Below are positions 2,738 to 6,954 of a stretch of DNA of 64,000 bases, one piece after another. A model generated the notes under the pieces. It was given only the letters and a program-made list of their open reading frames with translations, did no database searches and was not told where the DNA came from. The DNA comes from Kitasatospora sp. NA04385 (lineage in GTDB: Bacteria > Actinomycetota > Actinomycetes > Streptomycetales > Streptomycetaceae): positions 1,920,740-1,984,739 of the forward strand of contig NZ_CP054919.1 in NCBI RefSeq assembly GCF_013364235.1, given 5' to 3'. The position numbers and the translations under genes are program-made. Within the stretch, counting starts at the first letter, position 1; the number at the start of each line of letters is the position of its first letter.

Positions 2738-3784
2738 ATGAGCAGCTCCCCCACCCCCGCCGCGCTCGGCTTCCGGATGCCCGCCGAGTGGCACCCGCAC
2801 GAGCGCACCTGGATGGCCTTCCCCACCGCCAACCCGACCTTCGACGGCGCCGAGCAGCTGGACGCCGCCCGCCGCGCCTGGGCGGAGGTCGCCAACACGG
2901 TCGTCCGCTACGAGCCGGTCACCCTGGTGGTCAACACCGGCGAGGGCGAGGCCGCCCGCCGCTACCTCGCCCCCGAGGTGGAGATCGTCGAACGGCCGCT
3001 GAACGACGCCTGGATGCGCGACATCGGCCCGTCCTTCCTGATCGGCGAGGACGGCGAACTCGCCGCCGCCGACTGGGTGTTCAACGGCTGGGGCGCGCAG
3101 TCCTGGGCCCGCTGGGACAAGGACCAGGACATCGCCGAGCACGTCGCCGGGCTGACCGGCGTGCGGCGCTTCGCCTCCCGGCTGGTCAACGAGGGCGGCG
3201 GCATCCACGTCGACGGCGAGGGCACCGTCCTGGTCACCGACACCGTGCAGCTCGGCGAGGGCCGCAACGCCGACTGGACCCGCGAGCAGGTCGAGGCGGA
3301 GCTCCACGCCCACCTGGGCACCAGCAAGGCGATCTGGCTGCCGCGCGGACTGACCCGCGACTACGACGAGTTCGGCACCCGCGGCCACATCGACATCGTC
3401 GCCGCCTTCGTCCGCCCGGGCACCGTGGTGGTCCACTCCCAGCCCGACCCGGCCCACCCGGACCACGCCGTCTGCCAGGAGCTCGCCGACCTGCTGCGCG
3501 CCGCCACCGACGCCCGCGGCCGCACCCTCGAAGTGATCGAACTCCCGGCCCCCACCGTGCTGTTCGACGAGGACGGCGAACCGGTCGACTACTCCTACAT
3601 CAACCACTACGTGGCCAACGGCACCGTCGTGCTGTGCGCCTTCGACGACCCGCGCGACGAGCAGGCCAAGGCGATCCTGGAGAAGGCCTACCCCGGCCGC
3701 ACCGTCGAACTGGTCGACGCCCGCGAGATCTTCGCCAACGGCGGCGGCATCCACTGCATCACCCAGCAGCAGCCGCGCGCCTAA
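2738..3784 (+). CDS. aguA: Agmatine deiminase family protein
   Basis: 348-residue protein of the peptidyl-arginine/agmatine deiminase family (PAD_porph fold), hydrolysing agmatine to N-carbamoylputrescine and ammonia in the cytoplasm. The N-terminus MPAEWHPHERTWMAFPT, the motif NDAWMRDIGPSF, NEGGGIHVDGEG, TRGHIDIV and the C-terminal GGGIHCITQQQP with the catalytic cysteine (about residue 339) are all present. It follows ureC by 47 bases and probably shares its transcript. The last codons and stop overlap a 19-bp sequence repeated 3.17 kb downstream, making its 3' end a likely integration site. Substrate assignment within the family is by motif only. Confidence 0.93.
   Translation: MSSSPTPAALGFRMPAEWHPHERTWMAFPTANPTFDGAEQLDAARRAWAEVANTVVRYEPVTLVVNTGEGEAARRYLAPEVEIVERPLNDAWMRDIGPSFLIGEDGELAAADWVFNGWGAQSWARWDKDQDIAEHVAGLTGVRRFASRLVNEGGGIHVDGEGTVLVTDTVQLGEGRNADWTREQVEAELHAHLGTSKAIWLPRGLTRDYDEFGTRGHIDIVAAFVRPGTVVVHSQPDPAHPDHAVCQELADLLRAATDARGRTLEVIELPAPTVLFDEDGEPVDYSYINHYVANGTVVLCAFDDPRDEQAKAILEKAYPGRTVELVDAREIFANGGGIHCITQQQPRA
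3764..3784. repeat. Left att-like direct repeat at the aguA 3' end
   Basis: CAGCAGCAGCCGCGCGCCT (3764-3782) plus the stop codon. It matches 6934-6952 at 18 of 19 positions, and both copies end in a stop codon (TAA here, TGA there). An integrated element that restores the 3' end of its target gene gives this pattern. No integrase is visible between the copies. Confidence 0.5.
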
Positions 3785-3786
3785 TG

Positions 3787-3819
3787 TTTCGGCAGGTCAA
3801 GCGCTCCGACCTGCCGAAA
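3787..3819. terminator. Hairpin after aguA
   Basis: Perfect 12-bp inverted repeat TTTCGGCAGGTC / GACCTGCCGAAA with a 9-base loop, two bases after the aguA stop. There is no U-tract, as is usual in streptomycetes. It would end the urease-agmatine deiminase transcript and can also serve the leftward operon. Confidence 0.7.
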
Positions 3820-3907
3820 TGACATTTCGGACCTTGCAGCTCCTGGCGGAAGGCGGCGGGATCTGGAGGTAGGTTTCCGAGATCGCCTCCCAGCCTCTCC
3901 CAATCGA

Positions 3908-4312
3908 TCAAGAATCCGCATCGAGGTCGGGTTGTCGTGCACTTGGGGGCGCCCGGTGCAACCCGACCTCGACAGCCCGCGGGAGGGGGTCCCGTCTCCC
4001 CTCCCGTCTCCACCCTCCGCCGGAGCCCGAGCCCCCTCGCCGAGTGCCTACCTCGTCGTCGCCGACGCGCCAGGGGTGCCGCTGTGGCAGTTGTTCCGCG
4101 ACGGGGGCGAGTAGCCACGCCAGCCCGTAGTGCCGGTTGAGCCCGGCGGCATCGCGCTCAGCGACCCCACGGCTGATGTACCACTGCGGCTCACCCATCG
4201 ACTGCACCCAGGTGCCGTCCGGCCGGCGGATGCCCCACAGTGGCGCGCCGTCCGGACCGCGCCGCAGTTCCTCGATCCGGTGGACGGCCCGCACCGTCTG
4301 GCGGGCGGTCAC
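3908..4312 (-). CDS. Hypothetical protein, third gene of coupled trio
   Basis: 134-residue protein of unknown function. The start chosen is the GTG at 4310-4312, overlapping the stop of the upstream gene as GTGA. Residues 1-75 look like a real folded domain, with the stretches PDGAPLWGIRRPDGTWVQSM and YGLAWLLAPVAEQL. The tail after about residue 85 is Arg/Gly/Ser-rich and looks disordered or frame-altered. It is the last gene of a three-gene operon running away from the HTH regulator at 5117. I recognise no family. The 4-base overlaps suggest the trio acts together. Confidence 0.6.
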   Translation of the reverse strand: MTARQTVRAVHRIEELRRGPDGAPLWGIRRPDGTWVQSMGEPQWYISRGVAERDAAGLNRHYGLAWLLAPVAEQLPQRHPWRVGDDEVGTRRGGSGSGGGWRREGRRDPLPRAVEVGLHRAPPSARQPDLDADS

Positions 4313-4587
4313 GTCGGCTGCCCGGTGCAGGTGGCGGTGTGGAACTCCGCCCACAGGTCCCGGCGGTCGTCGATGCCGGACGAGCTGTGGCCGCCGAACC
4401 GAGTAGCGGCGCGTGCCAGGTGCTGCACGATCTCGCCCTCGACCAGCCGGTCTGCGCCGGCCAGGTCGACCCGGATGCGGGAGCACCCGCAGTCGAGCTG
4501 CTCCACCGGCACTTCCCCGTCCAGCAACGCGGCAACGACGGCGGCCTGCTCGAAGACCTCCCGCGCGACCGGGTCCACGCCGTTCAT
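4309..4587 (-). CDS. Hypothetical protein, second gene of coupled trio
   Basis: 92-residue cytoplasmic-looking protein starting MNGVDPVAREVFEQAAVVAA, with an acidic helical first half, a CGC motif in QLDCGCSRIRVDL (about residues 32-34), and the closing segment RDLWAEFHTATC. It overlaps its upstream neighbour by ATGA (4584-4587) and its downstream neighbour by GTGA (4309-4312). No known domain is recognised. Reading frame choice rests on the double overlap and on the amino acid composition compared with the other frames. Confidence 0.62.
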   Translation of the reverse strand: MNGVDPVAREVFEQAAVVAALLDGEVPVEQLDCGCSRIRVDLAGADRLVEGEIVQHLARAATRFGGHSSSGIDDRRDLWAEFHTATCTGQPT

Positions 4588-4967
4588 CCGGCACACGCGA
4601 GACGAACCTCGCGACTGCGCCCGTCCATCACGAACGCCAACCGCTGCGGCCCCCGTGCAAGGTGCCCCGCCAACAACCCGGGGTCGTGCAGCAACACCCG
4701 GTACGCCTCGGCCTGGTCCCACCCCAGCGGCAACGTCCGGAGCACGGCCCACAGAGCCTGTCCGGCTTCCTTCACCGTCGGGTAGGTGCGTTCGCCCATG
4801 ACGCCCGGGATCTGCACGATGCAGGCGCCCGTCTCGGGTTCGAGAGCGGGGTCGGTGCCGGAGACGCACCGCGCGCACTGGCCGCACGGCCGGTGCGGAA
4901 CATCGGCGGCATCGCCGACCGGCCACTCGATGCGGGGCCTGCGGCCCTGCCTGGTCTTCTCGGCCAT
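4584..4967 (-). CDS. Cysteine-containing hypothetical protein, first gene of coupled trio
   Basis: 127-residue protein starting MAEKTRQGRRPRIEWPVGD. The ATG at 4967 is preferred over an upstream ATG at 5012 because AGGGG lies 6 bases before it. A cluster CGQCARC near residue 28, with another Cys about 17 residues later, could bind a metal or be redox-active. The rest, with YPTVKEAGQALWAVLRTLP and AYRVLLHDPGLLAGHLAR, is predicted helical. It heads an operon divergent from the HTH/DUF5919 regulator, with a palindrome in the shared intergenic region. Function unknown. Confidence 0.65.
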   Translation of the reverse strand: MAEKTRQGRRPRIEWPVGDAADVPHRPCGQCARCVSGTDPALEPETGACIVQIPGVMGERTYPTVKEAGQALWAVLRTLPLGWDQAEAYRVLLHDPGLLAGHLARGPQRLAFVMDGRSREVRLACAG

Positions 4968-5081
4968 GATGATCCCCTGTCGCATGCGGACGAAGGCGGC
5001 ACCGAGCGCCATGTCTGGCCGCCGATCTGCCGCATCATCAGAATCGGCTGAATGCCCACGCAGGGCGATATCACGCCGGTG

Positions 5082-5096
5082 ATCTCACCGTGAGAT
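5082..5096. promoter_or_regulatory. Palindromic operator between the divergent island genes
   Basis: Perfect inverted repeat ATCTCAC-C-GTGAGAT, overlapped on its left by a near-repeat GATATCAC...GTGATCTC (5067-5086). It lies 20 bases before the regulator start at 5117 and 115 bases before the leftward operon. It is the best candidate binding site for the HTH protein encoded next to it. Confidence 0.5.
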
Positions 5097-5116
5097 AGCT
5101 CTGCCGGAGGTTGACC

Positions 5117-5968
5117 GTGAGCAGTCCGCCCGCCCTGATGCCCCTGTCGCTGCCCGATGCGGCCTGGCGGCACTCGGACGTCCGCCATGCTCTGATCGAC
5201 CGGCAGATGGGCGCCCTGCTGCGCTGGGTGCAGCACCACACCGGCGCCAGCCGGGGACGCATCGCCATGGCCATCGGCATGACGCAGTCCCGTGTCAACG
5301 AGATCATGAACGGGCGCAGAGAGGTCCACAGGCTCGACGTGTTCGAGCGGATCGCGGAGGGCCTGACCATGCCGGACAGCGCCCGCCAGGTGCTCGGCCT
5401 CGCCGCCCGTCAGCGGGCGAGCGCGGTGGCGTTCGACCTCGCCGCATGGCCGGAGATCGTCCGCGTCTACAGCGCCCAGGACGCCGCGGCTGCCGAGATC
5501 CAGCACGCCGCCCGGGCCACCGGCGAGATCGACGTCCTGGCCGTCCGCGGACTCGGCCTCCTCGGCCTCTCCAACAGCCTCCTGCGCCCCCACCTCGACC
5601 GCGACGGCGACGCCCCGCCGCGCCTGCGCGTGCTGCTGCTCGACCCGGACAGTCCGGCCGCCCGGCAGCGGGCCGTCGAGATCGGCGAATCAACCGAATC
5701 CCTGTCCAGCGGCATCCGCACCGCGGAGGCCCGGCTGCGCGAACTGGCGGACGCCGGTGGCGGGGTGGAGGTGTACCGGTACCGGACGCTGCCGGTCTGG
5801 CGGGTCATCAGGCTCGGCCCGGTGCTGTACGTCGGCGCGTTCGACGTCGGCCGGGAGGGGCACGAGTCCGCGACGTACAAGCTGGTCCGTACCCCCGGAG
5901 GCCCCTTGTGGGCGGGGTTCCGCAGGCTGTTTGATGCCCTGGTCGAGGACAGCACCCGCATCATCTGA
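5117..5968 (+). CDS. HTH (XRE-type) regulator with DUF5919-like sensor domain
   Basis: 283-residue cytoplasmic protein. GTG at 5117 is preferred because GGAGG lies 6 bases upstream; a TTG at 5111 abuts that site. Residues ~25-95 are a helix-turn-helix of XRE type, with RIAMAIGMTQSRVNEIMNGR as the recognition region. After a linker, residues ~130-275 form an alpha/beta domain (EIDVLAVRGLGLL, LRVLLLDPDSPAARQRAVEI, VEVYRYRTLPVWRVI, GPVLYVGAFD) resembling DUF5919, sometimes compared to phospholipase-D-like folds. The gene is 11 bases from a CYTH protein and divergent from three small genes, with a palindrome between. Regulation of both units is inferred. The ligand of the C-terminal domain is unknown. 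Confidence 0.8.
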   Translation: MSSPPALMPLSLPDAAWRHSDVRHALIDRQMGALLRWVQHHTGASRGRIAMAIGMTQSRVNEIMNGRREVHRLDVFERIAEGLTMPDSARQVLGLAARQRASAVAFDLAAWPEIVRVYSAQDAAAAEIQHAARATGEIDVLAVRGLGLLGLSNSLLRPHLDRDGDAPPRLRVLLLDPDSPAARQRAVEIGESTESLSSGIRTAEARLRELADAGGGVEVYRYRTLPVWRVIRLGPVLYVGAFDVGREGHESATYKLVRTPGGPLWAGFRRLFDALVEDSTRII

Positions 5969-5979
5969 CGGAGGACCAG

Positions 5980-6543
5980 GTGGCCATCGAAGCCGAGCTG
6001 AAAGCGATCGTGCGCGACCCCGAGAGCGTGCTCGCCGCACTGGAGAAGACCGGCGGACCTGATCGGGTCGACGTCTACCAGGACACCTACTACGACGAGC
6101 CGGCGGGCGGCCTGATGGACGCCGATCGGGAGCTGCGCATCCGGACGGTGCACGGACCGGACTCCACCCGCACCGTGCTCACCTACAAGGGCGCCCGCGT
6201 GGATGCGGATTCCGGGTCGAAGCCGGAGTTCGAGACGAAGGTGGCCGACCCGGCCGCCGCTCACGAGATCTTCCGCGGTCTCGGGTACGTGCCTCGGATC
6301 GCCTTCGAGAAGCGGTGCCGGAACTACGACCTCACCGCCGATGGGCGCCAGGTGCTCGCCACGCTGGTCCGGGTGCCTGAGATCGACGGCACCTGGCTGG
6401 AGGTCGAGACGTCCGCCGCGGACGCGGCCGAACTGCCGGCCGCACTCGTCGTGGTGCGTGCCGTGCTGCACGGGCTCGGCATCGCCGACAGCGACCTCAC
6501 CACCGAGCTGTACACCGACGCGGTCGCAGCCGCTCGCCCGTAA
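5980..6543 (+). CDS. CYTH domain protein (class IV adenylate cyclase-like)
   Basis: 187-residue protein with the CYTH signature EAELK (ExExK) at residues 4-8, then YYDEP, ELRIRT, LTYKGA and EFETKV strands that line the triphosphate tunnel, and a late WLEVET motif. CYTH enzymes bind organic triphosphates and metal ions; members are CyaB adenylate cyclases, thiamine triphosphatases or inorganic triphosphatases, and sequence alone does not tell which. GTG start with GGAGG 5-9 bases upstream, 11 bases after the HTH/DUF5919 gene, so almost certainly co-transcribed. The pairing suggests that the enzyme makes or destroys a nucleotide signal read by the regulator; that is inference. Confidence 0.85.
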   Translation: MAIEAELKAIVRDPESVLAALEKTGGPDRVDVYQDTYYDEPAGGLMDADRELRIRTVHGPDSTRTVLTYKGARVDADSGSKPEFETKVADPAAAHEIFRGLGYVPRIAFEKRCRNYDLTADGRQVLATLVRVPEIDGTWLEVETSAADAAELPAALVVVRAVLHGLGIADSDLTTELYTDAVAAARP

Positions 6544-6560
6544 CCCGGACGCACAAAACC

Positions 6561-6586
6561 GCCCCGCCTCCCGAAGGAGACGGGGC
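6561..6586. terminator. Hairpin after the CYTH gene
   Basis: GCCCCGCCTCC / GGAGACGGGGC, 10 of 11 pairs with a CGAA loop, 17 bases after the CYTH stop and 8 bases before the end of the convergent pseudogene. It probably acts in both directions. Confidence 0.7.
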
Positions 6587-6594
6587 TGTGGTGT

Positions 6595-6948
6595 TCAGGG
6601 CCTGGTGACCAGGAAGGTTCGCCGGGCGATGCCAACTTCGACCAGTGCTGTCTCGCCCACCTCCGTCCAGCCCCTCCAATACGCGGCGCTACCGGGGTTT
6701 TCGCCAAGGCACTGGCAGTCGCAGTCGTCATGCTCTGCATCGCGGCAGCGGGTGTCGCACTTGCCGGTCGTCCGAAAGTCAATCGTCACCTTCACCGACC
6801 CGTAGCGTTCGGCCAACGCCTCGACAATGTCACGCATGTGGTTGCGGGCGATTGCCCAGCACTTGTCGGCCCGGTCCCAGCCTGGTCGAACCAGATCTCC
6901 CAGAACGCGGTGAATGAAGGCCAGGTTGTCCTTCAGCAACAGCCGCGC
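6595..6948 (-). pseudogene. C-terminal remnant of a Cys-rich accessory protein
   Basis: About 117 residues from ARLLLKDNLAFIHRVL to FLVTRP look like genuine protein, with a cysteine cluster in GKCDTRCRDAEHDDCDCQCL, then AYWRGWTEVGETALV. I remember streptomycete hypotheticals with similar C-terminal halves but longer N-termini. Upstream the frame stays open to 7434, but the translation turns into Arg/Pro/Gly low complexity and no plausible start or ribosome site is seen. The break falls at the right direct repeat (6934-6952), so the gene was probably truncated by the event that formed the island junction. Function unknown. Confidence 0.5.
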
Positions 6949-6954
6949 GCCTGA
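6934..6954. repeat. Right att-like direct repeat
   Basis: CAGCAACAGCCGCGCGCCT followed by GA, the second copy of the aguA 3'-end sequence (one mismatch in 19). If this is the displaced original aguA 3' end, the sequence to the right (from 6955) was the ancestral downstream flank of aguA. Confidence 0.5.

Follow-up and report, generated by a model that had tools for sequence, protein, structure and literature searches.

Gene content of the island downstream of the agmatine deiminase gene

The DNA analyzed here is a stretch of 64,000 nucleotides from Kitasatospora sp. NA04385 (hereafter the window). Near its left end lies an agmatine deiminase gene (2738..3784, + strand; PF04371, Pfam E=2e-112) that encodes an intact 348 amino acid protein, with orthologues in near relatives that are 91-96% identical. 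The 3' end of this gene serves as an attachment site, and it is followed by a small island that ends at a second copy of the same gene end. With a G+C fraction of 0.703, the island lies below its two flanks (0.740 and 0.765), and values as low occur in only 1.3% of the equal-sized windows within the 64 kb; its base composition is looser, but modestly so.

Three genes on the minus strand (A, B, and C) are arranged divergently from two genes on the plus strand. Gene C (3908..4312) encodes a hypothetical protein recognized from its reading frame only; gene B (4309..4587) encodes a hypothetical protein with a second copy in the genome (85% DNA identity); and the hypothetical protein encoded by gene A (4584..4967) contains a CxxC motif, has a paralogue in the genome, and shows weak homology to a protein encoded at the G085 deiminase site. 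Parts of genes A and B recur together elsewhere in this genome (G000:C1:5854204-5854701, L072; 85% identical), next to a HAD hydrolase gene and another XRE gene; gene A looks 5'-truncated there.

The first of the plus-strand genes (5117..5968) encodes an XRE-type regulator with an HTH_31 domain and a C-terminal half predicted to adopt a phospholipase-D-like fold (mean pLDDT 78), which matches TrmB-like regulators, Zucchini, and NucT. Since the HKD motif is missing, the predicted fold suggests that this protein is likelier to be a ligand-sensing regulator than an enzyme. The downstream gene (5980..6543; PF01928, E=2e-18) encodes a CyaB-type CYTH protein of the class IV adenylate cyclase/triphosphatase superfamily, which passes the TIGR00318 (CyaB) cut-off, keeps the ExExK motif, and has a triphosphate tunnel metalloenzyme among its nearest solved relatives. 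XRE and CYTH form a conserved two-gene operon in Streptomycetaceae, and most XRE-CYTH loci in genomes of this family lie away from the deiminase site. In 200 such genomes, the CYTH gene is located directly 3' of the XRE gene in 25 of 32 XRE-homologue loci (5117-6543 in the window; loci L168-L196).

At the right end of the island, gene R (6595..6951, - strand) has homologues that align to C-terminal parts only, namely those of 355- and 646-codon frames, so it is probably the C-terminal piece left over from a longer gene that was severed at the right junction. A first-pass annotation of this DNA had described a gene truncated exactly at the right repeat copy, together with a looser base composition and a divergent gene arrangement. 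The latter two points agree with our results; as for the truncation, the homologues of gene R fit a 5' loss, but the frame stays open across the right repeat, which does not show an exact cut. No family match was obtained for genes A, B, C, and R, and PADLOC returned no defence-family match of note.

An attachment-site pair with a stop-codon swap

The end of the target gene is repeated, in direct orientation, at both island boundaries, as expected of a prophage relic. The two copies (3764-3782 and 6934-6952) are 18/19 identical and spaced 3170 bp apart. The left copy, CAGCAGCAGCCGCGCGCCT, forms the end of the deiminase gene with the stop codon TAA (GCC-TAA), while the right copy runs into TGA (GCC-TGA) with the reading ...QQQPRA* still in frame. 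Including these stops, the attL core reads CAGCAGCAGCCGCGCGCCTAA (3764..3784, + strand) and the attR core, the former deiminase 3' end, reads CAGCAACAGCCGCGCGCCTGA (6934..6954, + strand). The deiminase stop is TGA in close relatives, as in the right copy of the window, which indicates that the original gene end is represented by the right copy and the new one by the left copy. Such a stop-codon swap fits an element that integrates at the 3' end of a gene and brings a substitute end with it, which is how the first-pass annotation had interpreted the repeat and its two stops.

When up to one mismatch was allowed, the repeat was found only at its two copies in the whole 8.4-Mb genome (two mismatches add seven more places), and the exact 18-mer CAGCAGCCGCGCGCCTRA (with stop) was restricted to deiminase 3' ends across 70 Kitasatospora genomes. 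It could be argued that the repeat is an incidental Gln/Pro/Arg codon similarity within ordinary variable DNA between operons, given that the core encodes a common run of residues and that the DNA is very G+C-rich. The two occurrences in 8.4 Mb, both with the stop in frame, speak against this, and the phage sequences described below refute it. The two repeat copies are an attachment-site pair. At attR, the match extends over only 19 bp and the DNA to its left differs, compared with approximately 36 bp in G004 and G087.

Empty sites were found among relatives in the K. phosalacinea group, another feature expected of a prophage relic. In four close relatives, no island separates the deiminase gene from the sequence found after position 6954 in the window (a small minus-strand gene and gntR); the nearest deiminase gene ends are those of three K. 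phosalacinea strains and K. paracochleata. Across Kitasatospora, the gap between the deiminase gene and tetR varies widely in size. It is shorter than 250 bp in 16 of 65 loci, and this adjoining arrangement is likely the ancestral order.

Phage attachment sites that share the core and its arms

In the related Kitasatospora genome G004, a complete prophage is located exactly at the deiminase end, with 56,241 bp between the gene-end copies and a perfect direct repeat of at least 35 bp at its flanks. It encodes a tyrosine-type integrase (418 amino acids, PF00589) that ends approximately 100 bp before the right repeat, and inspection of the reading frames, rather than a family scan, assigned tail, tape-measure, capsid-type, and lysin-like proteins to its interior. 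A search of IMG/VR with the gene-end core identified three contigs (L155, L156, and L157). L156 and L157 share the order integrase, paired CTCCCA motif, core identical to the deiminase 3' end, paired CTCCCA motif, and strong hairpin, a layout that reads as a textbook attP next to int; their integrases are 44-45% identical to that of G004. In L155, a deiminase gene (67% identical) leads into an arm of this type, which marks a prophage boundary in another actinobacterium. Two further IMG/VR contigs (L158 and L159) encode integrases 78% identical to that of G004, with the core diverged and the arms kept. None of the integrase homologues (approximately 38-45% identity) in 13 other Streptomycetaceae genomes sits at the deiminase core, so the choice of this site is not common to all integrase relatives, and a scan of the G004 integrase against genome contigs returned no relative.

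A segment of attP arm DNA is retained inside attL of the window, where it occupies 232 bp after the deiminase stop (3787..4018, + strand). An arm profile built from 10 phage or prophage arms, with the window and the gene-end core left out, matched 3787-4018 at E=7e-38, and the runner-up place in the 64-kb window scored 0.9 bits. The match persisted when the profile was limited to integrase-positive members plus IMG/VR contigs (E=8e-25) or to IMG/VR contigs alone (E=2.8e-13). Thus, the window and integrase-bearing phages have arm DNA in common, as a prophage relic should. A sequence-only arm model run on 70 Kitasatospora genomes placed 7 of its 8 matches directly 3' of the deiminase gene and nothing strong away from it; the model includes the window, G073, and G004, whose own matches there are not independent. 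The sole match elsewhere (G066:C62:364687-364814, L208) is weak (E=8e-4). Overall, phage arm DNA directly follows the deiminase gene in 9 of 65 Kitasatospora loci.

Within the arm segment we identified a paired motif, GATC..CTCCCA..CTCCCA..GATC (3881..3909, + strand), which is the only paired CTCCCA motif in the window and a probable integrase arm-binding site; in the phage attPs, the paired motif flanks the core on both sides. It is followed by a hairpin with 14-bp perfect arms (3921..3972, + strand), which probably corresponds to an element-borne terminator. A strong stem is present at the equivalent place in 10/10 phage or prophage arms (-32 to -62 kcal/mol), and the stem sequences differ. 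Next to the right end, GATCTCCCA (6894..6902) occurs only here on the plus strand of the 64 kb and is suggestive of a right arm-type remnant, being a single motif off the usual spacing. The left segment had no blast match in plasmid and phage collections, and nothing on the island came near any Rfam gathering score, which indicates that the segment is not a curated RNA family. A likeness of its 3' end to a tmRNA end was dropped, as the window has no tmRNA and the likeness does not recur in phage attPs.

These results bear on two readings that require no phage. An incidental codon similarity has practically no probability left in view of the arm signature, the phage attPs with the same core, and a prophage at the identical position. 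Alternatively, slippage or homologous recombination could have produced the second gene end, or the block could be a long-standing resident that has disappeared from other lineages. The widely varying deiminase-tetR gap shows that the interval is generally labile, but divergence in the arm segment exceeds that in the adjacent gene, the segment has a scattered distribution among species with near relatives that have no arm, and the combination of a stop swap with an arm signature is specific to integration; we therefore consider this explanation very improbable.

Recurrent occupancy of the site

Elements have docked at the deiminase 3' end repeatedly, in different members of the Streptomyces family. 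We scanned 395 genomes of this family for two exact copies of the gene-end 24-mer and found them in six (G004, G087, G104, G137, G346, and G328); G328 was not counted as an occupied site, since its two copies sit in separate deiminase genes. Including all cases with a gene-end repeat, the other cargo at this junction comprises elements or relics of 1.2 kb (G072), 3.4 kb (G104), 4.3 kb (G137), 5.6 kb (G087), and 13 kb (G346, a member of another genus, with an integrase present between the copies), besides the 56-kb prophage. The G087 relic has an integrase C-terminal scrap, TMERRIAGSLQER, beside attR (identified by eye against the G004 integrase), and that of G104 also has an integrase scrap. 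Relics in other species that are integrase-less or bear such scraps indicate that loss of the integrase at the deiminase site is recurrent.

The two observations that the first-pass annotation had named as support, a strain with the deiminase gene joined to the sequence after 6954 and other cargo at the same junction, have both been made, and its interpretation is supported. This reading can now be extended by a probable parent in a tyrosine-integrase phage family, by the arm DNA that survives at 3787-4018, and by the loss of integrases seen elsewhere at this site.

Other similarities in cargo were seen among the occupants of the site. G073 and G024 (L071 and L078) carry a related protein unlike the XRE protein of the window, which in G024 is apparently fused to an XRE-like region. 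G003 and G087 (L130 and L139) have similar terpene-cyclase-like genes, and a flavoprotein-like gene near the right end is common to G087 and G032.

Proposed origin of the island

Based on the paired repeats, the empty sites, the phage arm signature, the integrase-bearing prophage at the same site, and the phage attPs with the same core, we propose that 3783-6933 are the remains of an element integrated at the agmatine deiminase gene end, most likely a prophage from an actinophage family with tyrosine integrases. The final codons of this gene would have served as attB in site-specific recombination with a phage attP carrying a copy of that gene end. Crossover within the shared core would have generated attL, with the phage-supplied last stretch, the TAA stop, arm DNA, and the hairpin, and attR, with the old gene end and its TGA. 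Since attL brings a replacement gene end, the deiminase stays intact. The integrase presumably binds the paired CTCCCA motifs, and the hairpin may act as a terminator for the integrase gene in the phage and for the deiminase gene in the lysogen. In intact relatives, integrase and virion genes take up the space as far as attR; in the window these would later have been lost, leaving approximately 3.1 kb with the still open XRE-CYTH operon and small genes. The exact crossover point, the order of the losses, and a former full-phage status of the window copy are what we infer from these comparisons.

The first-pass annotation had seen no integrase inside the island and had left a remnant or dependence on factors in trans as options. 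Indeed, no integrase was found in the deiminase-tetR interval of the window, nor any integrase scrap in the window, and none of the G004 family was found elsewhere in the genome at E<=1e-60. The absence of its own tyrosine integrase fits a relic and excludes an autonomous prophage. Tested window proteins matched no phage structural family in a search for virion or lysis genes. The missing virion genes and integrase scrap, the short match at attR, and a right arm reduced to one possible motif count against an origin as a full prophage. A small integrase-less passenger (CIME-like or phage-satellite-like) with its own attP, which entered through the integrase of a co-infecting phage and never was a full prophage, would account for the missing virion and integrase genes, as well as for the compact block of open XRE-CYTH and A/B/C frames. 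Moreover, XRE-CYTH is also present at the deiminase site of G090, in degenerate form in G003, and as CYTH alone in G027. However, the G090 and G027 copies have no second gene-end repeat, gene R looks truncated, the relics with integrase scraps show decay in place at this very site, and the genome of the window holds no close relative of the G004 integrase. That the XRE and CYTH frames are open is equally compatible with a cassette and with a decayed prophage. We prefer the decayed prophage and consider a passenger moved in trans unlikely. In a broader version, the deiminase 3' end would be a standing dock where a family of phages moves, in trans, cassettes that have no integrase but have the same attP arms as these phages, XRE-CYTH being one such cassette; this is a rather doubtful proposal, which if true would point to a satellite-like system in actinobacteria with cargo that is selected rather than in plain decay.

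Comparison with known integration systems

It is well known that elements can insert at the 3' end of a gene and restore that gene; this has been described for mobilizable elements, and cis-mobilizable elements (CIMEs) are those that have lost their integration genes and kept attL and attR (PMC5704250). The island resembles a CIME in that it keeps attL and attR at an undisrupted gene 3' end and has lost integration and transfer genes, with no integrase left. In contrast, CIMEs derive from conjugative or mobilizable elements, whereas the relatives of the island are phages, and the integrase-bearing element examined in detail at the deiminase site (G004) is a prophage. With the temperate tyrosine-integrase actinophages (G004, L156-L159) the island shares attB, the gene-end core (diverged in L158 and L159), the CTCCCA arm with hairpin, and the restored gene; unlike the island, of only 3.1 kb, these keep the integrase and, in G004, capsid and tail genes. 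Phage integration systems described in Streptomyces include phiC31, TG1, R4, SV1, phiJoe, and Samy (PMC12924846, PMC5311408), which are listed among serine-integrase systems, Samy targeting a radical-SAM gene (PMC12924846). These are also temperate phages of the same hosts with fixed chromosomal sites, but the deiminase site is used by a tyrosine integrase and is the restored 3' end of a coding gene. The open-access papers searched contained no report of agmatine deiminase as an integration site, in line with the first-pass annotation; integration at gene 3' ends was already known, and the deiminase site is new as far as this literature goes.

These findings define, for Streptomycetaceae, a phage attachment site that is conserved and whose use does not disrupt the gene, together with the integrase family acting on it. 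A compatible int-attP pair could also serve as the basis of an integration vector that spares the host gene. With phage arm DNA in 9/65 loci, the deiminase locus records repeated infection and decay.

A separate observation concerns codon use at the gene end. Among the 65 Kitasatospora loci, synonymous codons with a third position other than G or C cluster in the last ten deiminase codons of approximately 12 genomes, with a maximum of 5/10 in G090. With three near-fixed codons set aside, such low-GC3 codons amount to approximately 3% at the deiminase 3' end compared with roughly 1% upstream; the excess is carried by 12 genomes and is suggestive of a footprint of repeated gene-end replacement by phage DNA.
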